A stretch of DNA of 22,136 nt, taken from a virus. This document shows, piece after piece, positions 1-22,136 of the stretch. Numbering within the stretch: position 1 is the stretch's first letter; every line of letters begins with the position of its first letter. Location of the stretch: the IMG/VR virus record IMGVR_UViG_3300030107_004066, positions 331 through 22,466 of that record. One strand, given 5' to 3'. The position numbers and the translations under genes are program-made. Under the pieces are notes generated by a model, which did not search any database, was not told the DNA's origin, and saw only the letters and a program-made list of their open reading frames with translations.

Positions 1-1
1 C

Positions 2-1681
2 GGACCCTTGGACACCCAAAGCAGGAGGGTCGGAACGTTTGAAGAGTTCTGCAAGCATTACTTGCAAAACTGGTCTTGTCCTGACTGTGGCGTGCATCAC
101 GACATGCCTGATTTTCATAAAGATTTTGCAGAAGCGATTACAGGGGATCACCATAGGGTTGTAATTAACTGCCCTCCGTATCATTCTAAATCTACACTGG
201 TTTCTGTTTGGCACACGGTTTACGACATTTGTCGTGACCCTAACTTGCGTACTTTGTTGGTGTCTAAATCTTTACCGTTCGCTAGAACGTTCATGCACAG
301 TATCAGTGAAATGTTGATGAACCCTGATTTGTATGCAGGTGGTCCTTCTATTATTGATGACTGGGGTCCGTTTAAGCCTGACGGCCAGTCTTCTTGGTCT
401 TCTGAACAGATTTATGTTGAGGGTCGTACTACTGCGGAGAAAGACCCTACTGTTGCTGTGCTTGGTGTAGGGCAGCAGATTTATGGTCGTCGTGCTGACA
501 TTATTAAATTCGACGACGTTGCTACTTTAGATAATCAAAGAAACCCTGACCGGGTTGCTGGCATGTTGGAGTGGTTTGATAAGGAGGCGTTGTCTCGTAT
601 TGGTCGTTCCGGTAAAGCAATTTGGGTCGGTACCCGTGTTTCTCCGGGTGATGTGTATTCGACTTTGGCTACCCGACCGGGGTATAAGGTTTTGAAGTTT
701 CCTTGCATTGTTGACGACCATGAAGAGAAAATGTTGTGGGGGGAGCATTTCCCTTACGAGCAGGCTTTGATTCATCGTTCGGAAATGAGACCTGCTGACT
801 TTCAGTTGATTTACCAGCAGGTAGACATTCCGGGTATTGGTGCTTCTTTCACTCAAGACATGATTGATGCTTCTAAGGATACTTCTCGGGTTGCTGGCCA
901 TTTTGATTCTAGTTGGCGTTTGATAGCAGGTTTAGATCCTGCTGGCGGAGGTAAAGGTTCCGGGTTCACAGCGTTTAGTTTGATAGGGGTTGATTTATCT
1001 ACGGGTAAACGATACTTGGTGGATAGTTTGTCTGTTAGACAAATGAAGGCTCCTCAGATGAAAGATCAGTTGCTGGAGTGGACTGACAGGTACCCTATTT
1101 ATGAATGGCGTGTCGAATCTAACGGTGTTCAGTCTCAGTTGGTGCAATACGATGTTGAGTTAACTCAGGCTCTGGCTAAACGTGGGGTTCGTGTTGTTCC
1201 TCATCAGACGCACGGGAATAAGTGGGACCCTCAGTTCGGGGTGGAATCTATCGCTCCTTTGATGGAAACCGGGTTGTTTTCTATCCCGTGGGGTAACGCT
1301 CCTTCTACTCAAGTGTTTCAGCCTTTAATCGAGGAATTGATTGCTTTCCCTATGGGTACTGTGTCTGATAGGGTTATGTCTTTATGGTTCGCTGATTTGG
1401 GTTGCCGTGACTTGTTGAAACGAGCCCATTTGCCGATGTTTCATGAAAGGATGCATGTGCCTAACCGTATTAAACGCCGCAGGCGTGTAGTTGACTTTCA
1501 TTCCCGGGAAGTTCGTGGAGTTAACCTTCACGACCAAAGACCGGGCCACATGACTCGTGGTATGGCTGGTTTTAGAAGGCAAACAGTGGGTAATGCTACA
1601 GACCATAGCGCTGTTGAAGAATATGAAATTGAAGATGGGCCTCAGCCCATGAATATAGATCCTAGTATTTGGGGCCAATGA
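2..1681 (+). CDS. terL: Terminase large subunit (DNA-packaging ATPase/nuclease), 5' end possibly outside window
   Basis: This is the motor that cuts concatemeric DNA and pumps it through the portal. Residues are counted from a TTG at position 8; the frame stays open to the left edge, so the true start may lie upstream. Seen in the sequence: a Walker A-like loop PPYHSKST at residues 56-63 (the usual form is PPRHGKS/T), a Walker B stretch IIKFDD at 165-170, and a C-terminal RNase H-like nuclease beginning at LDPAGGG with Asp310. A second acidic strand is VESNG and a late Asp454 sits in SDRVMSLWFA. An N-terminal CPDC with nearby His (residues 24-31) could bind metal. The gene ends at TGA 1679-1681, and an unknown gene and the portal follow, the normal neighbourhood. 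Leucine is written mostly TTG here, unlike the genes downstream. Family assignment is firm; the start is not. Confidence 0.9.
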   Translation, partial: GPLDTQSRRVGTFEEFCKHYLQNWSCPDCGVHHDMPDFHKDFAEAITGDHHRVVINCPPYHSKSTLVSVWHTVYDICRDPNLRTLLVSKSLPFARTFMHSISEMLMNPDLYAGGPSIIDDWGPFKPDGQSSWSSEQIYVEGRTTAEKDPTVAVLGVGQQIYGRRADIIKFDDVATLDNQRNPDRVAGMLEWFDKEALSRIGRSGKAIWVGTRVSPGDVYSTLATRPGYKVLKFPCIVDDHEEKMLWGEHFPYEQALIHRSEMRPADFQLIYQQVDIPGIGASFTQDMIDASKDTSRVAGHFDSSWRLIAGLDPAGGGKGSGFTAFSLIGVDLSTGKRYLVDSLSVRQMKAPQMKDQLLEWTDRYPIYEWRVESNGVQSQLVQYDVELTQALAKRGVRVVPHQTHGNKWDPQFGVESIAPLMETGLFSIPWGNAPSTQVFQPLIEELIAFPMGTVSDRVMSLWFADLGCRDLLKRAHLPMFHERMHVPNRIKRRRRVVDFHSREVRGVNLHDQRPGHMTRGMAGFRRQTVGNATDHSAVEEYEIEDGPQPMNIDPSIWGQ

Positions 1682-1724
1682 AATGAAAAAAGTCCACACT
1701 TGTCGGGTTTCTGTCTGAGGGAAC

Positions 1725-1967
1725 ATGATTAAAGACGCTCTCAATCGTCGAGCATTTCGTTCGGCAGAAAAAAACTTAAACGAAAACGAAATGTTATGCG
1801 GAACTATGATCAATAACAAGCCGCATTATTTTTCTATGCCGAAAGATGCTACCGACATGGAGGTAAGAGAACATGCTTTTGAACTTAGAGAGGGACGTAA
1901 AATGAGTTCAATCGAACGCTCGTTGTTAAGCATCGCTGAAGGAGCCCAACAAAATGTTAGACACTGA
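1725..1967 (+). CDS. Small protein of unknown function between terminase and portal (80 aa)
   Basis: I do not recognise a family. The ATG at 1725 is preceded by a GAGGGA ribosome site only a few bases away. The end overlaps the portal start by 14 bases (TGA 1965-1967, portal ATG 1954), which suggests translational coupling. The protein is charged, basic at the N-terminus and predicted helical. It has no signal peptide or membrane segment; its central part reads like a small compact domain (one Cys, Tyr/Phe cluster) followed by a charged helix. The position suits a small head-assembly or packaging accessory, but that is only context. Confidence 0.75.
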   Translation: MIKDALNRRAFRSAEKNLNENEMLCGTMINNKPHYFSMPKDATDMEVREHAFELREGRKMSSIERSLLSIAEGAQQNVRH

Positions 1968-3756
1968 TCGCCTAGCCTCCCTATATACGGCTTGGCGTGC
2001 CAGATACGCTGATCGTGATGTCCGCATGGACACTATCGAACGTGTGATGCGAGGAGACTTTGATGTTTTCGACCCAGACGAAGAAAACATTGATTCTAAA
2101 TCGCCTAACCTTATTCAAGTTGCTTTAGAAGACACTGCTGAGGCAGCGTCTCTTGTGCCTACTGTGAGGGTTCAGCCAGCACGAGGATCTAAAGAATCTA
2201 AAAAAGTTTCTCAAAAGATGGAAAATATCGCTGCGTCTTATATGGACGCTAACGGTATGGACCTTATGATACCTCGGGCTGTCATGGATATGGCCGCTTA
2301 CGGTTTTTCTGTGTGGACATTAACTCCAGACTTTGAACAAAACATTCCTCTTATTGAACGCAGAGACCCACGGCACTGCTACCCAGAACCGGGTTTCAAA
2401 CCGGGAGATTCTGTGCGTCGATGCATGTTCGCCCGAGAAGTTTTCTTCACTCAACTACCAGAAGAATACCAGCATAAGATCGCTGAGTTCACTGGCCAAC
2501 GAACAGACATACAACAACCCGATGAAAACACTCGGGTAGTTATTGTCGAATACTACTCTGACGAAGAATATGTTCTCGCTGCCCTTTACCAAGGGTCAAC
2601 TGAAGGATTTAATCGTTACGGTTCAAATACTGACATTCCTTTCCCTGTTGTTTTGGAAAGGATAGAAAACAAAGTCGGTGTTTGCCCTGTAGTTATTGGA
2701 ACCCGTATCACTTTAGATGGTGAGATGCGTGGACAATTCGATCAAGTCGTAGGACTGTTAGAAGCCCACATTCGTTTAATGGGGCTTGTGTTAGATTTCG
2801 CTGACCAAGCAGTCTACTCAGACATTTGGGTTCGTGACCTTATCGGTGAAATGCCTTACGGTGGTGGTTCATTTATTGAACTCGGGCCTCAAGGTGCCAT
2901 AGGTCGTGTCCCTCCTGCAGTTTCCTCTTTCAACATTCAATCAGATTTACAAAACTTGATGGAAGGAATCCACCTTGGCGGTCGCTGGCCTAAAGCCCGA
3001 CCGGGCGAAGTGGACCAGTCGATCGCTTCAGCGAAATTTATTGAAGCATCAGCAGGAATGATGAACACTGCGATCAGAACTTATCATCAGATCTTACAAA
3101 AGAAATTAGAACGAACTTTACGTTTAGCGTTTGAAGTAGATAAAGCATATTTCTCAGGCTCTAAATCTGTTACAGGTACTTTAAGGAACCAAAACTTTAT
3201 CGAAGAGTATTCTCCTTCTAGGGACATAGATATAGAAAACCGTGTCCGAGTAGAGTACGGGCTTGGTTTAGGTCGTGACCCTGCACAATCTGCAGTGCTT
3301 CACATCCAGTATTCTCAAGCAGAGTTTGTTTCTAAAGAGTTTGTTCAGGAAAACATTGACGGGTTAACAGATGTTGCTCGTGAACGTTCAAGACTGGACG
3401 TTGAAAAGTTTAGAGGGATGGCTCTCGCTAAACTTCTCCAAGGTTTAGAAACAGGTGAAGTTCCTGACGAGGCTTTAATTGAAATGGCCCGAGCGAGAGA
3501 AAAAGGTGAAGACCTTTTTGAACTATATGACGAATGGATAGTTCAACCTAAGAAAGCGTTAGAAGAACAAATGCTTGAAACAGGGTTAGGGGCTCCGCTA
3601 ATGCCGGGTCTCCCACCACAAGGGGAGGAGGAATTAGGCGGTCCGGTTCCTCCTCCTCCAGTCCCACCGGGGGGTGGGGAACTTCTGGCTCGCATCGGTT
3701 CGGGTCCGGGAGCAGGACCACCTCCCGGTGGACCACCACCTGAAGGTCCGGCATAG
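1954..3756 (+). CDS. Portal protein
   Basis: It forms the dodecameric ring at the head vertex through which DNA enters and leaves. Support: position directly after the terminase, about 600 aa, and a mixed alpha/beta body followed by a long helical section (about residues 340-400, around SIASAKFIEASAGMMN) of the type that lines portal channels. AAGGAG at 1939-1944 sets the ATG at 1954. The last 55 or so residues (from about 545) are a low-complexity Pro/Gly tail with short Glu runs, likely disordered and perhaps reaching into the capsid or binding an internal protein. The stop codon shares one base with a possible GTG-started mini-gene. I see no single diagnostic motif, so the call rests on context, size and overall pattern. 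Confidence 0.82.
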   Translation: MLDTDRLASLYTAWRARYADRDVRMDTIERVMRGDFDVFDPDEENIDSKSPNLIQVALEDTAEAASLVPTVRVQPARGSKESKKVSQKMENIAASYMDANGMDLMIPRAVMDMAAYGFSVWTLTPDFEQNIPLIERRDPRHCYPEPGFKPGDSVRRCMFAREVFFTQLPEEYQHKIAEFTGQRTDIQQPDENTRVVIVEYYSDEEYVLAALYQGSTEGFNRYGSNTDIPFPVVLERIENKVGVCPVVIGTRITLDGEMRGQFDQVVGLLEAHIRLMGLVLDFADQAVYSDIWVRDLIGEMPYGGGSFIELGPQGAIGRVPPAVSSFNIQSDLQNLMEGIHLGGRWPKARPGEVDQSIASAKFIEASAGMMNTAIRTYHQILQKKLERTLRLAFEVDKAYFSGSKSVTGTLRNQNFIEEYSPSRDIDIENRVRVEYGLGLGRDPAQSAVLHIQYSQAEFVSKEFVQENIDGLTDVARERSRLDVEKFRGMALAKLLQGLETGEVPDEALIEMARAREKGEDLFELYDEWIVQPKKALEEQMLETGLGAPLMPGLPPQGEEELGGPVPPPPVPPGGGELLARIGSGPGAGPPPGGPPPEGPA

Positions 3757-3845
3757 TGGAAGATAAAAGAGACCCTTTTGAAGATGATGAAATTATAGAT
3801 TCTTGCGATCTTGAAAACCCAGAATCTTGCGATTCTTGTCAGTAG
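3756..3845 (+). CDS. Possible 29-aa acidic mini-protein with three cysteines
   Basis: A GTG at 3756 overlaps the last base of the portal TAG, as in coupled phage genes, and GAAGG lies about nine bases upstream. The frame runs 29 codons to TAG at 3843-3845, filling the gap before the next GTG start at 3852. The product is strongly acidic and ends in a Cys-rich stretch (SCDLENPESCDSCQ), so a small metal-binding or disulfide peptide is possible. Close tiling between two real genes is the main support; the short length means chance remains possible. Confidence 0.4.
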   Translation: MEDKRDPFEDDEIIDSCDLENPESCDSCQ

Positions 3846-3851
3846 GTAAAC

Positions 3852-4283
3852 GTGGCTGAAGAAATAGAAAAAACACCAACAGGGGATGTAGCGTTAAACA
3901 AACCTACGTCTGGCACATACGGAGAAAAAGCAGACCTTAACAGGTTAAAAAGTGCGTTGCCTCCGATGGAGCAACAACAAAGACCTTCTCAGCAGCCTTC
4001 TCCTATGCGTTCACCGTCGGGGCAAGTTCCTCAACGCCCTATGGGAAGGCCAACTAACGCTCCTTTGAATCTTCCTGCAGGAATTACTGCACCTACTAAC
4101 CGTCCAGAAGTGCCATTAAACACGCCTTTAAGTCAAGGGCCAGTTATGCCGCAAAGAAACCCTGCAGCAGACAAACAACGTTTAGCAATTTTAGAAGCAC
4201 TTTCTACACATCCAGAAGTTTCTCAAGAAACTAGAGAATGGGCTGCTTTAGTAGCGGAGTATTTAATTTCCGGGAGGGGTTAA
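3852..4283 (+). CDS. Pro/Gln-rich, largely disordered virion-module protein (143 aa)
   Basis: Unknown function. It starts at GTG 3852 with a weak AGG site just upstream, and its stop codon directly abuts the ATG of the next gene. About residues 35-105 are low complexity, rich in Pro, Gln and Asn (for example MEQQQRPSQQPSPMRSPSG), so probably unstructured. The last 38 or so residues form a likely helical segment containing THPEVSQETREW. This architecture, a flexible linker plus a C-terminal helix placed between portal and giant internal proteins, would suit a small tether or assembly adaptor. That role is inferred from position and composition only. Confidence 0.75.
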   Translation: MAEEIEKTPTGDVALNKPTSGTYGEKADLNRLKSALPPMEQQQRPSQQPSPMRSPSGQVPQRPMGRPTNAPLNLPAGITAPTNRPEVPLNTPLSQGPVMPQRNPAADKQRLAILEALSTHPEVSQETREWAALVAEYLISGRG

Positions 4284-7200
4284 ATGCCGTTTAATTTAGA
4301 CACAGGCGAATGGGAAGAAGAAGAACCTGTAGAGGAGGATATTCCTGCTGAAGGGCAAGCACAACAAGTTTCTATTTTTGACCCTGTAAAAGAACAAGGC
4401 GTTTTAGAAGGTGGTTTGTCTCTTGCTGGTTCGATGATTCCCGGCGCTGCAGCCGGTTACGCTGCAAGGCAATCCCAAACAGATAACTTTTCTGTTGGGG
4501 ATATTTTTAATCAATTAGGTAAATCAGATTTACCTTATTACATTCCGGGTGTGGGTGAAGCGTTAGGGTTAAAGCACGCTATACAGTCAAACAACCAAAA
4601 CACTGACGCTGCAACAAACGCTTTGTCGAAATTAGGTTACCTTGGAATTGTTGGTCTTGGTGTAACAGGAGCAGGTTTAGGTGGCTATTTGGCTCATTCA
4701 GTTGGCCGTCAGATAAGAACTAATCGAGGCATAGCAGACATGAGGGCTTTGCCTAGCCGCCCAATATCTAACCAGCCTCAAACAATGTTGTCTCCCCAAT
4801 CTCATGAAGCAGTAAATCTTTTTCCTTCTTCTGTTCCTTCTTCTCGCAGGTCTTACATGATGGATGCTTTGCATGAAGTAGAATTAGCAGCGTTAGAAGG
4901 AAAAACAACACAAGGTCACGTTTTCGACGATCTTTCAAAAATAAGTGCGACAAGCACTTTAGAGCATGTTTTGGCTCCTATAGCCGAAGCATTCATTAGG
5001 GGAGTAACAGGCAAAACTAAACGCACTACTGGTGTTAGGCGTCAAGAAGTAAATGTTGACGTTATCAGACCTTTTATGTTGGCAATGGGGGAAAGGTATA
5101 AAGAACTTCCTGCATTCCGGCAAGGAGGAGGCGTCGGAATGAGCGACTTAAAACGCCATCCTAGCCCAGAATTTCAACTCGTAGAATATATTGCTAGAGA
5201 GTTTTCTAAATTTGATTACGCTTTAGAGAATGACATTATAAGGATGGTTCATCCTAACAAGTGGAAAAAAATACCGGGAAGTAGCCCACCAAAAGGAGAA
5301 GTGTCTAGTTTCGTTGCAGCGGATGAACGGCTTGGCCCTAACAGAGCCCTCCCCGGATTGATGCATGAATCTCCAGACGTTGTTATTAAAGCATGGGAAA
5401 AAATATCCCGAGGTAAAAGTTTAACCGCTAGAGAGATGATGGCTTTAAGCGAAACAATGTTTTCGTTCGCTGAACTAACTCAACAAATCGCTCACCCTGA
5501 ATTGATTCTTTCTAATCCTTTAATCAAGTTAAAGAGAGTTTCTATTTCACAGTATCGTTTCAATGATTCACCAACAAAGGGCCAATTAGAATTTAGTACC
5601 TTAAAGTTTCCTCGCAGACCTAGAGGTTCGGAACAAATTCATTATGAGGTAATGAACGACTTGCAGGAGTTGTATACACACAACCCTGATGCCTTGATTT
5701 CTTTAATGACTGAAAACATTTTGAGAGCATTCACAGACGATGAAGTTGCGACGCTTCGGAGATTAAGTCAAATCGAAGATAAAGAAAAAGCGTTTAACTG
5801 GCGAGAAACTGAACATAGTTGGCGGCACGGTTTATACGACAGGGGTCCGGGTTTTGGTTCCGAAGGATACGACGCTTCTTCGCAACGTGCATTATCGACA
5901 ATACTGTGGGGGTTTTCAAGTCAAGTTCATCCAGATATTGAAATCGGCACGCCTATGATGGCAGCGTTAGAAAACGCTACTAAAATTCTTGGCTTAGAAG
6001 GGCCTAATGCTCTGCTAAAAAATATCCAGTCAGATTTCGTAAAGATGGCAACTGGAGGGGTAAGCCCGGAACGTTCTGTTTTTTGGGACAGACTTTCTTT
6101 AAGTGTCTCTGGGGAACTCATTCAGGGTTTAAGACGGAAAGCAAGAGAAACATTTGATCCTTTGTTCTTGGAAGACATAAATCAACCCCTTCAGGGAGAT
6201 CTTCAACTTTTCCTTAAAACTAAAGGAGTTGACGTTGTTGGCAAGTTGACTGAATCTTTAGATCCTTGGGATTCGATAACCGCAAAAATTTTAGGCGATA
6301 AAAGATATTGGCAAGACGGCGTAGGCCCTCGACAGATATTCAGCACAAACATATTAAAAATTATTCAAGAGCCTTTACCTGCTGGTTTTATTTCAGCAGG
6401 GGATAAAGCCATTACATATTTGCCTGAGATAGTTCCTGTGCAAAGCCTTAGACAAACTTCCTTTGATGACAACTGGGGCATGAAACCTGCTTCAAGGGTT
6501 CAGGAAATAAATTTACTTACTGACTCTGAAGGAAACATAAACATAGGCGGCAACGGGCTTACTTCTCGTTTGTTGTATTCAACTGTGGTTCCGTCAACCG
6601 ACGGGAAATCATTTGTTATGAGACGGAAACGCCCTGAACAAATTGCTCCATCTTTAACCATGGAAGAGTTTTTTGAAATGCTCGGAGATTTAACTATGGG
6701 GCCAACAGGCCAAGCAGGAGAAACGGGTGCAAGAATATATTCTTCTCAAAACAAAATACCGGGTTTAATGGAAGGGGAAATCATAGCCTTGAGTGCTAGA
6801 GCAGACGGTCCTTTAAGTTTAACAGAAACAGGAAAACCTACTGCTCAACAACTTTTGAAACTTAAAAGGTTCCTTGAATCTGAAGGTATCGAATTTGAAG
6901 CAATTATAGACAACCCTCATCAAGGCCCTACAAGAGTTCATGTTGACGAACTTGGTCAACCTGTTTGGGATTCTACATTTGCTAAAGAACAAGGCTATGG
7001 CATGGGTGTTACTAGCGAAGTTCGACAGCAAGTTATTCTAAAATTTAGAACTCCAGAAGATCTTAAAAAGGCTTTTGCTCTTATGCACAGTCCAGAAACT
7101 CTTCTTCGTAGTGCTGCAACTGGATGGGACGAACCATCCAGCCATCATGCGAGAGCCTCTCATTATTCTGTTTTATACAACGCTCTGTACGGTTCTGACT

Positions 7201-8702: not shown

Positions 8703-8720
8703 AGTGCGGAGGTTGGCGTA

Positions 8721-14306: not shown

Positions 14307-14309
14307 ACG

Positions 14310-16376
14310 ATGGCAACAATAGACGATCTTGTTAATACAACTTACCAAATTTTCCTTGACAACGGTTTAGACACTTCTGAGGTATTTAAGCCAATGGGGT
14401 CGGACCAAACGACTATCGGAGAAGCCCTATTAGGGCTTTTATATGATATAGCCGATCAGAAAGATTATGCAGATTGGGATGTTGATTCATGGAAGACTGC
14501 TGTTGCAGATACAGTTGGGAGCAGTCCAAAAGTCCGCCCTGAAACAGGGGATGCAGATTTTTACCAATCGATTGACATTTTCGACCAATATGATAGAGAG
14601 GAGGCTGCTTTCGTTCCCGGAGCAGAAGAAGGGGATCGAGAGTATTTGCCGTGGCGAGTTTTTGTCCCTCCTGTTGGTGGGCTAACTGTTGAACAAGCAT
14701 CAACGCTAACTAACTATGGAGAAACCACCTATGGTGGTATTCGGTCGGCTAAACCGACGGCTGGTACTAGCGAATTCGTTGAGCAACAATTAGAGGTAGC
14801 CGAGGCTGCAGGCACAACTGTTACTGGAATAGAAGAAAGAAGAGTTTCCAGAGATTATCTTGATGAAAGATATTTTGATGCTTATGTGCGTGCCGGGTTA
14901 ATTATCTCTGAAGACGATTTTGAAAGAGGTGTTACTACAACAGGCATTGATTTTGATGAACTCTCTCAAGAAGGCGGCACCGACACCACTAGTTTAGACG
15001 AAGGGCTTGACCCTGTTGGTTATGGTGACGAGGAGGAATTTGTTTTCACTGAAGTTGGGATGCGTTTAATAACAGAGTTCGTTGAAGAAAGAACAGATAT
15101 TTCAGGCGTCAACGCTGACGAAAGATTTTCTCAAGCCATCAAATGGTTAAATGCAAGAGGAGATGATGGTAACGTAAATTGGTCTATATACATGGACGAA
15201 ATAGACGCTAGATTTGTTGGCGAAGTTGAACCTAGAATGTCTCAGGTTTTCTATGTGAGAGGTAGCGACATGACTGTTGTTATCCCACAAGATGATATTA
15301 GCAGAGCAGGGATAAACGGAAACGACCTTAGCCTTGTGATTAACGGTATGCATGCTCAAGGTTTAGATCCTTCTCGGGGTAGTGAATGGAAAGTTATCGC
15401 TGACATTGTTACCCGAAGAGATATTTCACCTAAAGGTGAAAGAGTAAGCGTAGAAGAAATGCCTTGGTCTGAGGTTAGTAGACTTTTTGGTGAAACAATA
15501 AACATAAACGGTGTAGACCAAGAGGTTGAAATCTTATTCAATAATGGAGAATTTGATATTCTTCAAGAAGCATGGGACAACATGCCTTCTTCTGAACGAA
15601 GCGGTGTTGATGATGTAGGAACCGTTGTCGCTACTTATGCTGAAGGTTTATCTTTGTACGACAACAACCGAGAAATGGCTTACCTTCATAGTTTCGCTCC
15701 TGATGTTGCAGCAACTCTTTTTGCTGGAGGGGAAAACGATTTAACTCCTGAAGAGCGTAGTTTGCTTGCTGACACGTTGAACAATTTGAACTCAACTGGT
15801 GCTGTCTCCAACATAGGAGTCTTTAACGCTCTTAATTCTGTTGCTCAAAGCGATGTTCTTTCTTCTACCGGCGAAACAGTATCTTTGGCATCTGACGAAG
15901 ACATAGAGGAATCTTATAGATCTATTTACAAGCAATGGTATCTTGAAGATCCTGACGAGTATCAAATTTCTAGGTTTATAAACGAATTAGAAAATTCCAA
16001 AACTGATTGGAAAGAAGGCCGACAAGAAGGCATTGTTTCTAAGGCTCTTAGAGGAGGTGACGTCGATCAGGCGGCACCTTCTAACACTGTTCTTCTTTTG
16101 CAACAGTTAAGAAGCGATAGAAGATATGACGATTTGTTTGGTCACATGCCTGCTCATTTAACTGAAGAACAATGGGTAAATGAGTTCGCTAATGCGACCT
16201 TAAATCTTTTAGGTTCTGAAACTGCTGAAGGTTTTGCCGATTTACAGAGGGCAGGTATGGAAACAGGGAACCTTAGTGATGTCCGCAGGAAAGCGTTCAC
16301 CACTGACATTTGGAAAGAGAATCCCAGAATTAGAGAAAATCTTGCTCAGTTCGGGAATTTGATAAAGGGAGCGTAA
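14310..16376 (+). CDS. Acidic putative minor virion protein (688 aa)
   Basis: It starts three bases after the previous stop with only a weak purine stretch upstream, so it is probably translated by coupling. It ends in TAA directly against the next ATG. The protein is notably acidic and soluble-looking, with no signal or membrane segment. The N-terminal 70 residues form a likely helical domain, about residues 85-165 are a looser linker, and the remainder is mixed. Near the C-terminus the segment LRSDRRYDDLFGHM (600-613) matches in pattern a segment near the start of the 353-aa protein two genes on. I do not recognise a named family; position and this shared module suggest a structural protein of the same complex as its two downstream neighbours. 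Confidence 0.8.
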   Translation: MATIDDLVNTTYQIFLDNGLDTSEVFKPMGSDQTTIGEALLGLLYDIADQKDYADWDVDSWKTAVADTVGSSPKVRPETGDADFYQSIDIFDQYDREEAAFVPGAEEGDREYLPWRVFVPPVGGLTVEQASTLTNYGETTYGGIRSAKPTAGTSEFVEQQLEVAEAAGTTVTGIEERRVSRDYLDERYFDAYVRAGLIISEDDFERGVTTTGIDFDELSQEGGTDTTSLDEGLDPVGYGDEEEFVFTEVGMRLITEFVEERTDISGVNADERFSQAIKWLNARGDDGNVNWSIYMDEIDARFVGEVEPRMSQVFYVRGSDMTVVIPQDDISRAGINGNDLSLVINGMHAQGLDPSRGSEWKVIADIVTRRDISPKGERVSVEEMPWSEVSRLFGETININGVDQEVEILFNNGEFDILQEAWDNMPSSERSGVDDVGTVVATYAEGLSLYDNNREMAYLHSFAPDVAATLFAGGENDLTPEERSLLADTLNNLNSTGAVSNIGVFNALNSVAQSDVLSSTGETVSLASDEDIEESYRSIYKQWYLEDPDEYQISRFINELENSKTDWKEGRQEGIVSKALRGGDVDQAAPSNTVLLLQQLRSDRRYDDLFGHMPAHLTEEQWVNEFANATLNLLGSETAEGFADLQRAGMETGNLSDVRRKAFTTDIWKENPRIRENLAQFGNLIKGA

Positions 16377-18131
16377 ATGGCTGAAGAAAGTGTTTTTATA
16401 GAAGGTACAGGCTTCGATGAGGCTATAGCCGAACAAACAAAAGGAACTAGACAATCTTTTGCTATTGCTATTCTTGGTGGTCTTGGCGCTCCTATGACTC
16501 AGGAAAATATAGACATTCTGCTTGCTTGGATGGGTAAAGAAAACACTAAAGCAACAAACAATCCGTTGGCCACCACTCAAGGACAGGGAAACCCCGAAAA
16601 GTATGGAGGGGATGTGATGGGCGATGACTATATCTTCAATTCACATAAGGTAAAGAACTATCCTGATTTCGATACTGGGGTACGGGCCACTGTCGATACT
16701 ATAAACCTTTCGTGGTATTCCGATATCAAGCGTTTGTTGATGAAAGGCAATGTTAGTATTCAAGATTTTAACAGACAGGCCATCGACAATCTAAAATTGT
16801 GGGGTACATGGCAAGTCGCCGAAGCGAGTATCCACCCGAATGCAGCAATACCTGATATTGACACATTAAGATCCTTTGAAGGGGTAAATAAGGCTAGTCG
16901 TATCGCACCTTACACTCGGGCTGTAGAGGTCGATGGGGAAGTTTTTCTAGGTTATGAAGTAAAATCCAGTAGCCACCCCAAGAAGATGTCTACCGGAGGG
17001 TTTAGGGGAGGTTTTGGTAAATCTTTCCAAGGGCCTACAGTGTGGATAAAATATGAAGGGGACGCTCCTCTTGTTGCAGTAGATAAAGTAGACAATCAAA
17101 CTTGGGACGATGAATTTCTTTCAGATCCTAATAACATTTTGTCTTTGCTTCCTTACGATTTGCATTTTGAAGATTCGCAAAATTGGGACGTTCAAGTTGA
17201 AGAAGTTTTGTATTCGCTGGGTGTTTCGTGGCTAGAAGACTATGAAGACGATCTTGAAATTTTAGCAATCGTTGGAAAAATTATTGCTGGCTATTATACA
17301 GATCCTGCAACTGGCGAAACATTGTCTGGTGTTTTCTTAAATGATTGGCAACAAACTGAGTTATGGAACTCTAAAACGGAAAATGCCCGGTTGTGGGACA
17401 GTTCTTCTGAGGCTGACCAAGAAAGTATGCTTATGGAGACAGCAACAATGTTGCTTTCTGCATGGAACGCTAACACTGGTGAGAATCTTCGTTGGATAGA
17501 TTTTGATTCTAACAACGATGGGGCTGTTTCTACTGCGGAACTTGAAAGCGGCAACTCTGAATTGTATAACCATGCTTTAAGTGTCGCAAATGGTTCCGTC
17601 GGCATAGAGCAAGTTCAGTTGCAGTGGATTTATCCTGCTGCTGAAGGAATGCCAGAAAGCCCTAGGAATAGGCTACTTAGATCGGAAGAAGTCGCTCAAA
17701 ATGAATTTAGTAAATCTGTTTCAACAAACAAAGGCGATGTTATAGCAACGTTTGATAAGTGGGGTGTTGAGATTGCTGACTCCACTGCCCAAACTTACGC
17801 TAACGAATTGTATATGGGAACGATGTCAGATTTTGACGTTGAACAGTTCGCCAGATCTATTTCCAACGGCTTGTATGCTCACAAGCCAGAAGACGTTGAT
17901 TTCGATACTTGGTCCAGCGTTTACGCTACCAACTACTCTGCGATGCTAGGTGTGGCTTCTCCAACTTATAAAGACGAGGCTTTTGTAGATATGTTGAATG
18001 GTGATGAGGCAGTGAACTTGAGACAGTTTAAGAAAAAAGTTCGACAGGATGAACGCTGGAAAGACTCAAGCGACGCTAGAGAAACTTACAGCAGAGTCTA
18101 TTCGGATGTAGGAAGGTTGATGGGGTTTTAG
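16377..18131 (+). CDS. Virion-associated protein with lysozyme-like N-terminal domain and EF-hand loop (584 aa)
   Basis: It probably cuts peptidoglycan locally during DNA entry. Residues about 20-165 match in pattern a phage lysozyme-like domain: WMGKENTKATNNPLATT at 51-67, where Glu55 is the likely acid and NNP-TT the substrate-side motif, followed by a YPDFDTGVRATVDTI segment and a WYSDIKRLLMKGN helix. About 321-366 hold a DWQQTELWNSKTENARLWDS stretch that I recall from actinophage minor structural proteins. Residues 377-388, DSNNDGAVSTAE, fit the canonical calcium loop D-x-N-x-D-G-x-V-x-x-x-E exactly. The C-terminus has VRQDERW at 555-561, sharing a module with the neighbours. There is no signal peptide or holin nearby, which argues against a free endolysin. 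ATG 16377 abuts the upstream stop and has AAAGGGA before it. Confidence 0.82.
   Translation: MAEESVFIEGTGFDEAIAEQTKGTRQSFAIAILGGLGAPMTQENIDILLAWMGKENTKATNNPLATTQGQGNPEKYGGDVMGDDYIFNSHKVKNYPDFDTGVRATVDTINLSWYSDIKRLLMKGNVSIQDFNRQAIDNLKLWGTWQVAEASIHPNAAIPDIDTLRSFEGVNKASRIAPYTRAVEVDGEVFLGYEVKSSSHPKKMSTGGFRGGFGKSFQGPTVWIKYEGDAPLVAVDKVDNQTWDDEFLSDPNNILSLLPYDLHFEDSQNWDVQVEEVLYSLGVSWLEDYEDDLEILAIVGKIIAGYYTDPATGETLSGVFLNDWQQTELWNSKTENARLWDSSSEADQESMLMETATMLLSAWNANTGENLRWIDFDSNNDGAVSTAELESGNSELYNHALSVANGSVGIEQVQLQWIYPAAEGMPESPRNRLLRSEEVAQNEFSKSVSTNKGDVIATFDKWGVEIADSTAQTYANELYMGTMSDFDVEQFARSISNGLYAHKPEDVDFDTWSSVYATNYSAMLGVASPTYKDEAFVDMLNGDEAVNLRQFKKKVRQDERWKDSSDARETYSRVYSDVGRLMGF
16533..16577 (+). other. 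Putative catalytic Glu and NNP motif of lysozyme-like domain
   Basis: The codons encode GKENTKATNNPLATT, with Glu55 of the 584-aa protein followed by Asn61-Asn62-Pro63 and Thr66-Thr67. In related lysozyme-like phage domains, as I recall them, a Glu just before a nearby NNP-x-x-T motif marks the active site. The assignment of Glu55 is inferred from pattern alone. Confidence 0.55.
17505..17540 (+). other. EF-hand/dockerin-type calcium-binding loop
   Basis: The twelve codons encode DSNNDGAVSTAE (residues 377-388 of the 584-aa protein). Positions 1, 3, 5 and 12 are oxygen ligands (D, N, D, E), position 6 is Gly and position 8 is Val, as in canonical EF-hand and dockerin loops. Only one clear loop is seen, and no full helix-loop-helix pair is obvious, so a lone structural calcium site is most likely. 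Confidence 0.7.
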
Positions 18132-19193
18132 ATGACTACTTTAGACGAAATTAGAGGCCTGTTCCCTTGGGCGGAAACCCTTGGGATGACTGAATTTATA
18201 TCAGAACTCATCATGGAAGGGGCAACTTCTTATGAGATAGTTGCTCAAGTAAGAGCAAGCGATCAATACAAGCAAATGTTCCCGGGAATGATTGCTGAAG
18301 ATGGCACTCGACGTTTCCAGTATGAAAGAGATTACTTAGAACAAGTTGACAACTATAGAACTGTTCTTCAACAGGCAGGGATGTATAACGCTGACGTTGA
18401 AAGCCCGTTAGATTATGTCGAATTTATGGCTAGCAATATAGCGCCTGATGAATTGCGTGAAAGAATTACTGTCTATCAGCAGATCCAAATGGGCAGCCAA
18501 GAGTTAAAAGATCAATTCTACATTTATGCTGGCATGGAAATAACTGACGACGATTTATTTGAAGCGGTTATTAACCCAGAGTTCGGGCAGGAACTCCGAG
18601 ACGAGTTCGATCGAACAGTAGCGGCAGGTGATCTTGATTATGCAACTTACATATCTAGAGCAACTGAGCGTGGTTTAGCGAACGTTTCTGATTTATTACA
18701 AGGAATGAGAGATGAAGGCCTTGTATCAGGAGAGGCGGTGCAACGAATCCGTGACTTAGATCCTGATTTCGCTAGAGAAGTTATGGGAGTAATAGCCAAC
18801 CAAGGAACTTCTACTCTCGGCTATGACGCTTTATCTTACGCTTTCCAATATGCTTTGCTTGGCTCTGCAGCAACAGAACAAGGTTTAACTGCTCCTTCTG
18901 CGGAGATGGTTGAACGTCTTCGTGCTGCTGGTGTTGATCGAAGCAGAGCAATGACAGCGTATGGCGCTTACGCTAATACGCAGAATCTGGTTTCAGGCAT
19001 GGTTCAACGTGCCACAGGTGAAGAGTTCGGACAAAAAGAGTTTGAAGAGGCTGTTTTGCTTGGTGAAGCAAGATCTGTTGATCTTTTAGATCGTGCTAGA
19101 GGCTTAGAACAGTCTTATGCCCGTAGATCAGGGGGATTTACCACTGGTCAGGAAGGCTCTAGGTTCACTCAAAGCGGTCGAACAAGGTATTAG
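18132..19193 (+). CDS. Putative minor structural protein (353 aa)
   Basis: It starts at an ATG that abuts the preceding TAG, with AGGAAGG upstream. The protein is almost entirely helical, acidic, and lacks membrane segments. An N-terminal motif VRASDQYKQMFPGM (residues 40-53) followed by YERDYLEQVDNY is, from memory, shared with many actinophage minor virion proteins of unknown function. The C-terminus (about 330-353) is a Gly/Ser/Arg-rich tail, probably disordered. It is the last gene of the large block before the scaffold and ends upstream of an inverted repeat. The shared module ties it to the 688- and 584-aa proteins, suggesting one assembly; its exact place in the particle is unknown. 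Confidence 0.8.
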   Translation: MTTLDEIRGLFPWAETLGMTEFISELIMEGATSYEIVAQVRASDQYKQMFPGMIAEDGTRRFQYERDYLEQVDNYRTVLQQAGMYNADVESPLDYVEFMASNIAPDELRERITVYQQIQMGSQELKDQFYIYAGMEITDDDLFEAVINPEFGQELRDEFDRTVAAGDLDYATYISRATERGLANVSDLLQGMRDEGLVSGEAVQRIRDLDPDFAREVMGVIANQGTSTLGYDALSYAFQYALLGSAATEQGLTAPSAEMVERLRAAGVDRSRAMTAYGAYANTQNLVSGMVQRATGEEFGQKEFEEAVLLGEARSVDLLDRARGLEQSYARRSGGFTTGQEGSRFTQSGRTRY

Positions 19194-19194
19194 G

Positions 19195-19213
19195 ACACAC
19201 TTTTTGGGTGTGT
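19195..19213 (+). terminator. Stem-loop between the minor-protein block and the scaffold gene
   Basis: ACACAC (19195-19200) and GTGTGT (19208-19213) form a six-base-pair stem around a T-rich loop two bases after a stop codon. No strong T run follows, so it is at best a weak terminator or an mRNA-processing or stability hairpin. It sits in one of the few real gaps of the window, which is the main reason to record it. Confidence 0.35.
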
Positions 19214-19243
19214 TAATAGAATCCCTGAACGTATCCCCCGACG

Positions 19244-19268
19244 AACAGGCGTAACCAACAGGGGCGTA
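19244..19268 (+). repeat. Imperfect tandem repeat before the scaffold ribosome site
   Basis: AACAGGCGTA (19244-19253) is followed after three bases by AACAGGGGCGTA (19257-19268), the second copy having two extra G. The pair lies in the 85-base gap upstream of the scaffold gene and runs into its AGGAG site. It might bind a protein or RNA, but chance is possible for so short a pair. Confidence 0.3.
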
Positions 19269-19278
19269 GGAGAAGAAC

Positions 19279-19743
19279 ATGAGCACAGATTCTGAAGATT
19301 TAGAATTTGAATCGGGTTCGAGCCTCAGGAGAAAACTTGAGGCGCAACTTGAAAAGAATCAGGAACTTTCCAAAGAGTTATCCTCTTATAAAGCCCAAGC
19401 GGTGATTGTTGAGAACGGATTTTCATTGGTAAAACCTGAAGATATTTCGGATGCAAAACCTGACGAAATGATCTCTGCAGCAGAAGCGGTTCAAGAGAAA
19501 CGCTTAAGCGAAAGAGAAGATGTCGTTAGGGACATACTTAGTCAAAAAGGTTTTACTGGAGAAGAACTGGATCAAGCAGCACAAGAAATGCTTAATCCTT
19601 CTGATGCAGATTTATCAGCCTATTCGAGAGCGAAGGAAACTTCAGCAATAGGGGGTAATGCTACCCCGTTGAAAGATCCTCGCACGATTCAACCGGGTTT
19701 GAGTCGTATCGAATATGCGTTGGAATCTAAAGCCAAAAAATGA
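19279..19743 (+). CDS. Capsid scaffolding protein
   Basis: It guides assembly of the capsid shell and is lost before DNA packaging. Support: position directly before the major capsid gene, 154 aa, high charge, and a heptad-like coiled coil at about residues 12-40 (SLRRKLEAQLEKNQELSKEL). A second charged helical stretch lies around 75-115 and a basic Lys-rich C-terminus, as is common where scaffolds contact the capsid protein. An AGGAG site before ATG 19279 fixes the start. No protease motif is seen, so any maturation protease must be elsewhere or absent. Family assignment rests on context and composition, not on a signature. Confidence 0.8.
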   Translation: MSTDSEDLEFESGSSLRRKLEAQLEKNQELSKELSSYKAQAVIVENGFSLVKPEDISDAKPDEMISAAEAVQEKRLSEREDVVRDILSQKGFTGEELDQAAQEMLNPSDADLSAYSRAKETSAIGGNATPLKDPRTIQPGLSRIEYALESKAKK

Positions 19744-19793
19744 ACTAAGTACCATATTGACAATTTAATCCTACTAACTGTGAGGTAACGACT

Positions 19794-20732
19794 ATGGCTT
19801 CAGGAAGCCTTTCTTTACTTGAGTCAGCCAAGTATGGCAACGATCAGTTAGCATCTGGTGTAGTTGAAACTCTTATTCAAGAGTCTCCAATTCTCGAGAT
19901 GCTTCCTTTCACTGCTATTTCTGGCAATGCACTCAAGGTTACAGTCGAAGATACTCTCCCAGCACCGGCTTTCCGTAATGTAAACGAGAACTATTCTCGT
20001 ACATTCGGTACAGATACAGAGCGTTTCTTCGGATGCTCAATTCTCGGTGGGGAAGTATTCATCGACAACTACATCGTTCGTGTGCAAGCGAACCAGATCA
20101 GCGCTAAGGCAAGGCAGTACGCCAAATTTGCTAAAGCAATGAGCCGCACATTCGATGCTTCTTTCTTTGACGGAACTGGAACGTCTAAAGACTTCAAAGG
20201 TATCAACGCTTTGATCGACGAAGGTCTCGGTCAAAAAGTATCAATGGGTACTAACGGCGCTGCTTTAACCTTAGACAAAATGGATGAGGCTATGGATTCT
20301 GTCCGTAACCAGTCCAGCCCAGATGCCCTTCTGATGAACCGTACGGTACGCCGTAAGGTCACCAGTTTGGCCCGTAACACCAGTGGCTACTTTACGCTAC
20401 TCGATGTTGGAGAAGACGCTCTTGGGCGTCAGGTAAGCACCTATAATGGTGTCCCTATCCGTATCATCGGTGACGATAAAGCAGGCGCTGCTATCCTCGA
20501 CTTTGACGAGACCCAAGGTTCTTCCTCGGTAACCTCTTCAATTTATGCTCTTGCCTTCGGCACTGACGAGAATGTCTATGGTATTCTCGGCCTTGGCGGT
20601 TCATTCGATGTCGTGGACTTCGGTGAAACAGAAGCCTCTCCGGGTCACCTCGGACGGGTTGAAGTTTATCCGGGCGTTGTTATTGCTAACTCATTTAGTG
20701 CTGTGCGTTTGCATGGTATTACTAACGCTTAA
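19794..20732 (+). CDS. Major capsid protein, HK97 fold
   Basis: It builds the icosahedral shell. The 312-aa protein has the expected order: an N-terminal helical arm (LLESAKYGNDQLASGVVETL), an elongated strand region with SISGN-like and FGTDTERF stretches, a spine helix at about residues 98-125 (AKARQYAKFAKAMSRTFDA), then the P and A domains with DALLMNRTVRRKVTSLAR and NGVPIRIIGDDKA, and a C-terminal strand ending in HGITNA. There is no long N-terminal delta domain, in line with a separate scaffold gene upstream. GAGGT at 19782-19786 sets the start. Codons are visibly richer in C-ending forms (CTC, TTC, GTC, AAC) than in neighbouring genes, as expected for the most highly expressed phage protein. 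Confidence 0.92.
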   Translation: MASGSLSLLESAKYGNDQLASGVVETLIQESPILEMLPFTAISGNALKVTVEDTLPAPAFRNVNENYSRTFGTDTERFFGCSILGGEVFIDNYIVRVQANQISAKARQYAKFAKAMSRTFDASFFDGTGTSKDFKGINALIDEGLGQKVSMGTNGAALTLDKMDEAMDSVRNQSSPDALLMNRTVRRKVTSLARNTSGYFTLLDVGEDALGRQVSTYNGVPIRIIGDDKAGAAILDFDETQGSSSVTSSIYALAFGTDENVYGILGLGGSFDVVDFGETEASPGHLGRVEVYPGVVIANSFSAVRLHGITNA

Positions 20733-20747
20733 TCGGAGGTTTTGATT

Positions 20748-21185
20748 ATGGCACAAGCAACAAGAACACCCGGTCCGGGTACAACAATCGAGGACGCTAA
20801 CGCAGTTGAACTAATTGCTTCTAGCGCTCACTCTGCCGACATAGCGGCTTCTTGGAAACAAGTTGACCGCCCCGGCCATGTTGTGGTTATAACCACTTTA
20901 GGTACGATCGCTTCAGACGTATCTGACACTGACATTGAAATACTTGGTGCTGATGATTCATCAGGAACCAACCCTGTTTCATACGGCCATTTTGATACTA
21001 TTGCTCACGATGACGATAATGAAACTCGTTATCTTGAAGCAGTTGTTCATAAATCATACATGGCAGCAGTTCTAGACTTGACTAAATCAGGTTCAGGAAC
21101 TGTTACTGCCGGTGTTAAAGTTCATGCAATCCCTCACAAGGGACGCACGGACGACGGTACCGCTACCGGACAACGTACCGCTTAG
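20748..21185 (+). CDS. Probable capsid decoration/stabilisation protein (145 aa)
   Basis: GGAGGT at 20735-20740 points to ATG 20748; an in-frame TTG six bases earlier is less likely. The protein has a Pro/Gly-Thr start (RTPGPGTT), then a mostly beta pattern with alternating apolar residues (HVVVITTLGTIASDV) and an acidic DDDNE loop, and a basic end. Immediate position after the major capsid gene, small size and beta-rich character fit the outer-surface decoration proteins found at this place in many phages. No specific family motif was recognised, so a head-completion or other small structural role is the alternative. Codon use is partly C-rich as in the capsid gene. Confidence 0.65.
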   Translation: MAQATRTPGPGTTIEDANAVELIASSAHSADIAASWKQVDRPGHVVVITTLGTIASDVSDTDIEILGADDSSGTNPVSYGHFDTIAHDDDNETRYLEAVVHKSYMAAVLDLTKSGSGTVTAGVKVHAIPHKGRTDDGTATGQRTA

Positions 21186-21204
21186 TCGGTATTACACAAG
21201 CGAA

Positions 21205-21228
21205 GGGGCAGGGCTTCGGCCCTGCTCC
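21205..21228 (+). terminator. Stable UUCG-capped hairpin after the capsid module
   Basis: GGGGCAGGGC pairs with GCCCTGCTCC around a TTCG tetraloop: ten base pairs with one G-U. It lies 20 bases after the decoration gene stop and 29 bases before the next ATG. No T run follows, so it could be a U-less terminator, a partial terminator that boosts capsid-module transcripts, or a 3'-end protector of capsid mRNA. Confidence 0.65.
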
Positions 21229-21257
21229 AACGCTTACTTTAAGGAGATCTTTTTATC

Positions 21258-21755
21258 ATGTCAGATGACGGCATAAACACTAAAAACTGGAACGTTCTCG
21301 CTACGGTAGAGAAATGGCATCGTGCCGAGGATCGTCATGTAGGCCTTCCACCTGATGAGGTGGTTGAAGCCAAAGATAACCTCCTGCTTAACGGAGGGAT
21401 ACAGTTACTACTTGATTTGCTTATCGGCGCTGGTGGTACTGTTTACAACAACAGCAATGCTTACATTGGTGTTGGTGATTCTTCTACTTCTGCGGCCGCT
21501 ACTCAAGATGCTTTGCAGGCTTCTTCTAATAAATCTTATAAAGGAATGGAATCTTCTTTCCCTTCACGTTCCGCTCAAACTTTAAGTTTCAAATCTGTTT
21601 GGGGTTCCTCTGATGGAAACTTTGCTTGGAACGAGTGGAGCATTTCTAACTCGAACTCAGATTCTGGGGTGAACCTTAATCGTAAGGTTGCTTCTTTAGG
21701 CACTAAAGCGTCTGGGTCTGAATGGACCTTGACGGTAACTATTACGGTATCATGA
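21258..21755 (+). CDS. Putative tail/fibre-associated structural protein (165 aa)
   Basis: AAGGAG at 21241-21246 supports ATG 21258. The N-terminal third is charged and helical with a LLLNGGIQLLLDLLIG segment. The rest is beta-rich and Ser/Thr/Asn-rich, including NAYIGVGDSSTS and a NFAWNEWSISNSN stretch, and ends in a strand WTLTVTITVS. From memory, small proteins with an IGVGDS motif followed by NRK and GTKASG-like elements occur next to fibre genes in many phages and are probably surface or receptor-binding accessory proteins. Its end overlaps the next start as ATGA (21752-21755), so it is translationally coupled to the Cys-cluster gene and to the fibre-like gene beyond. Confidence 0.65.
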   Translation: MSDDGINTKNWNVLATVEKWHRAEDRHVGLPPDEVVEAKDNLLLNGGIQLLLDLLIGAGGTVYNNSNAYIGVGDSSTSAAATQDALQASSNKSYKGMESSFPSRSAQTLSFKSVWGSSDGNFAWNEWSISNSNSDSGVNLNRKVASLGTKASGSEWTLTVTITVS

Positions 21756-21919
21756 GCGCTCCTGAATTATCTGTTCAGGACGTTCAAGCAAATTTGAGCG
21801 AACGAGGCCAACTCGAATGGGAGTTGGCTGCTCAACGTGCGATGATCGCTAAGTTACAGGCAGAGCGTTGTCCGTGTCCTGATTGCACTTGTTGCTCGGA
21901 GACGGCTAATGGCGACTAA
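21752..21919 (+). CDS. 55-aa helical protein with C-terminal cysteine cluster
   Basis: It starts in an ATGA overlap with the gene before and ends 11 bases inside the gene after, so it is held between two coupled genes. The first 38 residues form a probable amphipathic or coiled-coil helix (GQLEWELAAQRAMIAKLQAE). Then five Cys fall within nine residues (CPCPDCTCC, 40-48), which suggests metal binding or disulfide linkage, and a short polar tail follows. I do not recognise the family. The longer in-frame extension upstream of 21752 would lie wholly inside the previous gene and has no better ribosome site. Confidence 0.6.
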   Translation: MSAPELSVQDVQANLSERGQLEWELAAQRAMIAKLQAERCPCPDCTCCSETANGD

Positions 21920-22136
21920 TTTTCCGGGCAGTTTAGATACTTCTACTCAGCAGCCATCTCCTTCGTCTTCGACGGAGATGGATGATTCGGGTTACGAACA
22001 CGATGTTGTCCACACTAACCACTCTGGTGCGATTATTGCGTTAGAGACCAAACTTGGTACTACTGATTCTAATCCGACTGCTAATGCGGTGTTGATGGGG
22101 ACTGGTTCGGGTACTTCTGAGTGGGATACTTCTCCT
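21909..22136 (+). CDS. N-terminus of a fibre-like protein, cut by window end
   Basis: An ATG at 21909 opens a frame that overlaps the previous gene by 11 bases and runs without stop to the right edge (76 codons). The N-terminus starts MATNFPGSLDTSTQQ, then a Ser/Pro/Asp stretch, then HTNHSGAIIALETKLGTTDS. The combination FPxSLDT plus AI-ALE-KLGT is, as I recall, characteristic of the N-terminal attachment part of phage tail fibres and of related structural proteins. The rest of the protein, which would carry the receptor-binding part, lies outside the window. Confidence 0.65.
   Translation, partial: MATNFPGSLDTSTQQPSPSSSTEMDDSGYEHDVVHTNHSGAIIALETKLGTTDSNPTANAVLMGTGSGTSEWDTSP

Follow-up and report, generated by a model that had tools for sequence, protein, structure and literature searches.

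Results and Discussion

How does a stretch of phage DNA come to lack a common four-base word altogether while its proteins stay as they are, and what acts against the word? The question is raised by IMG/VR virus record IMGVR_UViG_3300030107_004066, of which we analyzed positions 331-22466 (G000:C1:331-22466; 22,136 bases of a 22,466-base record; hereafter, the window). The window is a fragment, the virion-gene half, of the genome of an uncultured tailed phage with relatives of about 47 kb. Its guanine plus cytosine (G+C) content is 44%, and the virus is a bacterial one, probably of marine origin. A preliminary description of the window had pointed out that it contains no AGCT. Based on the results below, we consider it highly probable that selection has cleared its DNA of the sites recognized by several Type II restriction enzymes of its hosts, and that the set of purged words switches with the host.

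AGCT is absent from the window and was lost through silent codon choice

An exact count confirmed that AGCT does not occur in the window. Base composition predicts 82.6 copies, close to the roughly 80 that had been estimated by hand, and Markov models predict 93-97 (93 at first order; 95.9 at maximal order, z = −14). We also generated 1,000 shuffled sequences in which protein, codon usage, and all dinucleotide counts were held fixed. These contained 100.1 ± 7.2 copies, with a minimum of 77, which excludes codon usage alone as the cause. The one-base neighbors of AGCT were not depleted (observed/expected: AGCA 140/91, CGCT 118/57, TGCT 144/105, GGCT 93/70), and the remaining four-base palindromes lay much nearer expectation (GATC 70/70, GGCC 50/54, CCGG 57/51, TCGA 71/83, ACGT 48/71).

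The word is avoided in all three reading frames, and the codons on either side of it show how. The preliminary description had claimed that alanine is never encoded by GCT after a codon ending in A, and this held across the 13 genes: GCT was used in none of 174 such cases (GCA 90, GCG 46, GCC 38), against 281 of 433 after codons ending in C, G, or T. Leucine after NAG was always TTA or TTG (21 of 21, with CTN 0 of 21), whereas CTN made up 246 of 559 leucines in other contexts. Similarly, serine was never AGC before a codon starting with T (0 of 107, compared with 62 of 399 elsewhere). After codons ending in C, alanine was never GCG (0 of 113), which reflects a second ban, on CGCG. The relatives G001, G002, and G003 often use GCT after A (131-244 cases), and what they lack is TCG before A (0-1 cases), reflecting a ban on TCGA.

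Comparison with relatives indicates what the loss cost. Sites that carry AGCT in relatives (89 in G001, 85 in G002, 121 in G003, and 44 in L112) have been retained in no case in the window, while G001 and G002, which both allow AGCT, have 107 of 198 sites in common. Amino acid identity at the lost sites equals the background (43% vs. 43%, 36% vs. 37%, and 32% vs. 31%). Thus, AGCT was eliminated through synonymous changes, without a cost to the protein. These observations support selection against the word itself with the protein unchanged, as the preliminary description had proposed.

Several other words are missing as well

In addition to the AGCT absence noted earlier, the window lacks CGCG (18.9 ± 3.8 expected from the shuffles), CCWGG (33.7 ± 3.8), CCCGC/GCGGG (14.2 ± 3.3), and TTTAAA (13.4 ± 2.8). 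TTCGAA is also absent (8.7 ± 2.5 expected), less surely so once the number of words examined is corrected for. AATATT, CAATTG, ATTAAT, and GKGCMC do not occur either, but they fail this correction because their expectations are only 6.5-7.6.

We take AGCT (AluI type), CGCG (AccII/BstUI type), CCWGG (EcoRII type), TTTAAA (DraI type), and TTCGAA to be the sites of known enzymes, and CCCGC is probably a site of the FauI type. The avoided four-base words are nearly all palindromes. The longer words avoided in the relatives fit known Type II patterns too, including the degenerate CCWGG, GRCGYC, YACGTR, CYCGRG, and GWGCWC. The lists of avoided 5-7-base words in the relatives include overlapping and merged patterns, so we regard only the main words as established. 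Of the original proposal that AGCT is avoided as an AluI-type restriction target, the selection against the word therefore stands and the AluI-type enzyme is a plausible reading of it; because no fewer than five or six words have been purged, of which AGCT is one, a single enzyme does not suffice as an explanation.

The purged set persists in a sibling and changes between branches

We collected relatives of the window from IMG/VR, 70 loci by the capsid protein and 38 by the terminase, some of them on contigs of 44-47 kb. A megablast search of the window against phages gave no match. The sibling locus L323, which comes from a different metagenome and shares 92% DNA identity with the window, carries the same bans (observed/expected: AGCT 0/14, CGCG 0/9, CCWGG 0/7, CCCGC 0/5, with TCGA at 21/18). 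A sibling scan with the 688-residue protein of the window found none.

The set is different in the next relatives. In L001-L003 and L062, with capsid proteins 87-89% identical to that of the window, AGCT is in excess and TCGA is nearly gone; CCWGG, CGCG, and CCCGC are gone as well. Genome G002 has 278 AGCT against 239 expected and 1 TCGA against 67, and G001 has 4 TCGA against 64. A more distant branch (L030-L057; about 71-73% identical, 60% G+C), represented by about 20 contigs from many samples, again lacks AGCT, and TTAA is missing with it; most of its members lack AATT as well (in G009, AGCT 0/72, AATT 0/41, TTAA 0/21). Another branch, L021-L026, lacks GGCC (0/32 in G006) and has almost no CCWGG, and in G010 and its kin GGCC and CCGG are scarce.

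On the capsid tree, in which several forks are weakly supported, the loss of AGCT falls at two separate places, in the window and in the distant branch. Therefore, it either arose twice or AGCT was regained several times. The purged words can also outlast the sequence around them. L112 resembles the window in its proteins (capsid 84% identical; 82-84% for capsid and terminase) but has a G+C content of 65% against 44%. Silent sites have thus been fully turned over between the two, and the bans on CGCG and CCWGG were kept in both.

Within G010 (L086-L088), the depletion falls mainly in the virion module (GGCC 3/20, CCGG 2/16), while the rest of the genome is near normal (13/18 and 15/13); the contrast suggests modules with different restriction histories. 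In L040, the words that its branch lacks (AGCT, AATT, and TTAA) are all confined to the last 1.1 kb (L040:5700-6803), where G+C falls, which is probably a chimeric contig end or a joint.

CGCG is forbidden across the whole lineage

CGCG is absent from essentially the entire lineage of about 47-kb phages, at G+C contents of 42-67%. Among the 66 loci of the first batch, which are partly redundant, 64 have no CGCG, where 2,962 copies would be expected in all, and the two exceptions lie past an abrupt breakpoint or at the end of a contig. A further 37 of 38 loci have none. The outgroups G012, G018, L067, and L357 do contain CGCG, with 422 copies in G012.

One contig shows an abrupt change of forbidden set along its length. 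In L017/G005 (33.2 kb), neither CGCG nor CCWGG occurs in the first 26 kb, and both begin at 26.1-26.2 kb; the last 7 kb hold 41 CGCG and 22 CCWGG, with G+C unchanged across this point. The breakpoint is a recombination joint or marks a chimeric contig. Changes of this kind also serve as a detector of recombination or chimerism.

Restriction by successive hosts as the probable selecting agent

Based on these patterns, we think it very likely that the selecting agent is cleavage by host restriction enzymes. Unmethylated phage DNA entering a cell would be cut by the host enzyme at each copy of its word, and genomes with fewer sites would survive more often, until no sites remain. Changes that remove the word would fall on codon positions that are neutral for the protein. 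After a shift of a branch to hosts with different enzymes, the former words would drift back and new ones would be purged. Such counter-selection accounts for the exact zeros, the short palindromes, the codon-neutral route, the persistence in a sibling, and the switching between branches. We also count in favor of restriction the other anti-restriction genes present in members of the lineage, which encode a Mom-family protein and an N6/N4 DNA methyltransferase.

Several findings weigh against this interpretation. No host or cognate enzyme was identified for any of the purged words. A search of GTDB contigs with a capsid profile found two contigs only, both in metagenome-assembled genomes (MAGs), one of Acidimicrobiaceae and one of Deltaproteobacteria. 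These placements conflict, being in different phyla, and may reflect mis-binning. In the class of the first MAG, Acidimicrobiia, the capsid matched in 2 of 395 genomes, one of which was that MAG, and an enzyme of the ThaI family (CGCG) was found in none of 247 genomes, though other CGCG enzymes may lie outside this family. CCCGC is not a palindrome, which is unusual for avoidance of orthodox Type II sites, and the same is true of the CTCGR depletion in the G009 branch. Finally, G004, G006, G007, G013, and G015 encode a tyrosine integrase and have completely eliminated CGCG or GGCC. Judged by their gene content, these members would be temperate, and their complete elimination of sites then runs against a published trend, in which temperate phages rarely eliminate sites.

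As for other clues to the host, a C5 cytosine methyltransferase adjoins an HNH protein in the Acidimicrobiaceae MAG (G031), and no specificity was assigned to it. A match to TIGR04338, named after Rv0185 of Mycobacterium, and capsid matches in Streptomyces and Gordonia at 37% identity faintly hint at an actinobacterial host. tRNA genes, taken as clues to attachment sites, were found once in 26 stretches. CTCGR (CCGAG and CTCGA), the non-palindromic word mentioned above, is strongly depleted in G008, G009, G011, and G024 (5/154 in G009).

Alternative explanations

We think it very unlikely that the phages themselves make a sequence-specific nuclease against host DNA and keep their own genomes free of the word instead of methylating it. 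CGCG is the best candidate for such a word, given its lineage-wide absence across a wide range of G+C, and a PDDEXK nuclease gene is conserved across the lineage. However, the PDDEXK protein matches phage exonucleases and also occurs in the outgroup G012, where CGCG is normal. No restriction enzyme family was found among the conserved and accessory genes scanned in the relatives, a scan that did not cover every open reading frame (ORF), and each of the many words that switch between branches would require an enzyme of its own. For CGCG taken separately, it is very improbable that a phage-borne factor is responsible, for example an early nuclease that cleaves host DNA at CGCG and leaves the CGCG-free phage intact. 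If this were true, the phages would discriminate self from non-self by the absence of a word rather than by methylation.

The words might instead be read by another factor, either a host defense nuclease outside restriction-modification or a methyltransferase or regulator of the phage itself. Several defense systems recognize self by sequence-specific methylation, and the asymmetry of CCCGC and CTCGR would fit such a factor. We rate this as very improbable, as the avoided words are mostly short palindromes of the kind that orthodox Type II enzymes recognize, and little avoidance is seen for other types of restriction (PMC6286503).

A purely mutational loss, in which the host methylates the cytosine of AGCT (or TCGA) and deamination then erodes the sites, strikes us as scarcely credible. 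Some lost sites do now read AACT/AGTT or TTGA. Nevertheless, AACT and AGTT account for just 10 of 89 replacements relative to G001, and transversions such as AGCA, TGCT, AGCG, and AGCC are equally common. At TCGA, deamination predicts TTGA and TCAA in equal numbers, but TTGA accounts for 14 of 46 and 19 of 53 replacements and TCAA is outside the 14 commonest. Erosion would also leave depletion rather than an exact zero and would alter proteins, whereas identity at lost sites matches the background. The replacement spectrum and the recurrence across samples led us to reject both deamination and artifact. An artifact of assembly or of restriction-digest libraries, or a quirk of codon usage, merits virtually no credence: the window is from a metagenomic contig, but the sibling from another metagenome repeats the whole set, AGCT is absent from the many contigs of the distant branch, different branches lack different words, and the shuffles exclude codon usage.

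Gene content of the window and its relatives

Besides a terminase and a P22-like portal, the window encodes several virion proteins of very large size and a capsid protein of the GP7/HK97 type (Table 1). Judging by its position and size, the 1861-residue product is probably an internal or ejection protein.

Table 1. Predicted genes of the window, with the basis of each assignment
Feature	Position	Strand	Basis
Large terminase subunit (Terminase_6C RNaseH domain)	8..1681	+	Pfam E 4.4e-7; identity 95% to sibling L323, 84% to G002
Small conserved ORF in the terminase-portal interval	1725..1967	+	Protein cluster 25 of relatives
Portal protein (P22-like)	1954..3756	+	Pfam P22_portal E 4e-6; conserved in 13 relatives
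Proline-rich conserved ORF, no assigned function	3852..4283	+	Protein cluster 9; no Pfam match
Very large virion-module protein, 1472 aa	4284..8702	+	No Pfam match; no assigned function
Very large virion-module protein, 1861 aa	8721..14306	+	Conserved in 14 relatives; position and size
Virion-module protein, 688 aa	14310..16376	+	No assigned function
Virion-module protein, 584 aa	16377..18131	+	phrog_6654 match (function not annotated)
Virion-module protein, 353 aa	18132..19193	+	phrog_8424 match (function not annotated)
Probable scaffolding protein	19279..19743	+	Gene order, just 5' of capsid gene; protein cluster 1
Major capsid protein (GP7/HK97-type)	19794..20732	+	Pfam GP7 E 4.8e-11; 70 related loci; lineage-tree marker
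Conserved ORF downstream of capsid gene	20742..21185	+	Protein cluster 6
Conserved virion-module ORF	21258..21755	+	Protein cluster 10
aa, amino acids.

The relatives of 44-47 kb encode a DnaG-type primase, a DnaB-type helicase, the PDDEXK exonuclease, a deoxynucleoside monophosphate kinase, a helix-turn-helix protein, and an amidase. G002 encodes a Mom-family DNA modification protein (L077:4056-4703; PF25680, E 9e-41) with a near-identical homologue in G001 (phrog_1384); both genomes nonetheless lack or nearly lack TCGA and are without CCWGG and CGCG. The N6/N4 DNA methyltransferase gene is present in G006 and G015.

Frequency and comparison with known systems

Elimination of restriction sites is already known, and earlier studies by Sharp, Karlin, and Rocha reportedly described it in phage genomes. 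About one tenth of viral genomes show complete or almost complete elimination of sites, nearly all of the orthodox Type II (Rusinov 2018, PMC6286503). For uncultured viral genomes, we found no literature on site avoidance beyond general work. The preliminary description had held that the same absence in unrelated phages of like composition without such a host system would count against it, and we assessed this as a frequency, using random IMG/VR loci drawn with neutral DNA patterns and calling a word depleted at ≤5% of its expectation. Among testable loci, AGCT was depleted in 8 of 157, CGCG in 2 of 116, GGCC in 3 of 128, and TCGA in 2 of 152. In frequency alone, the objection thus partly applies. 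A set of 89 loci was scored over at most 10 kb; at least one four-base palindrome was missing in 15 of them, and two or more in only 2. These frequencies fit the published tenth, so the absence of AGCT is not exceptional by itself. The notable part is the combination of words, the lineage-wide ban on CGCG, and the switching between branches; what is new is a phage lineage in which site elimination is unusually clear and switches between words.

This lineage constitutes a natural experiment, in which many independent contigs with 80-90% identical proteins and very different G+C have been purged of different words. It allows one to measure how many specificities a single genome can lose and how fast the sets switch, and through the word sets of phages, the restriction repertoire of uncultured hosts becomes readable.

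The phages described by Rusinov (2018) resemble the window in that short, mostly palindromic words are completely or nearly completely lost while neighboring words stay normal and proteins are conserved. Unlike those cases, at least five words are purged here from a single fragment of 22 kb, close relatives differ in their sets, and CGCG is missing lineage-wide at widely differing G+C; the hosts, too, were not identified here. Phage T7 is similar in lacking CCWGG and nearly lacking GATC in 10-kb segments, with six-base palindromes at 0.40-0.51 of expectation. It is, however, one cultured phage whose hosts are known and which carries the Ocr antirestriction gene, whereas the lineage of the window changes its purged set by branch. 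Finally, the Mom-type modification of phage Mu has a counterpart in the Mom-family proteins of G002 and G001. The window covers virion genes only, and in contrast to Mu, these two relatives are also without TCGA, CCWGG, and CGCG, and thus combine modification with site loss.

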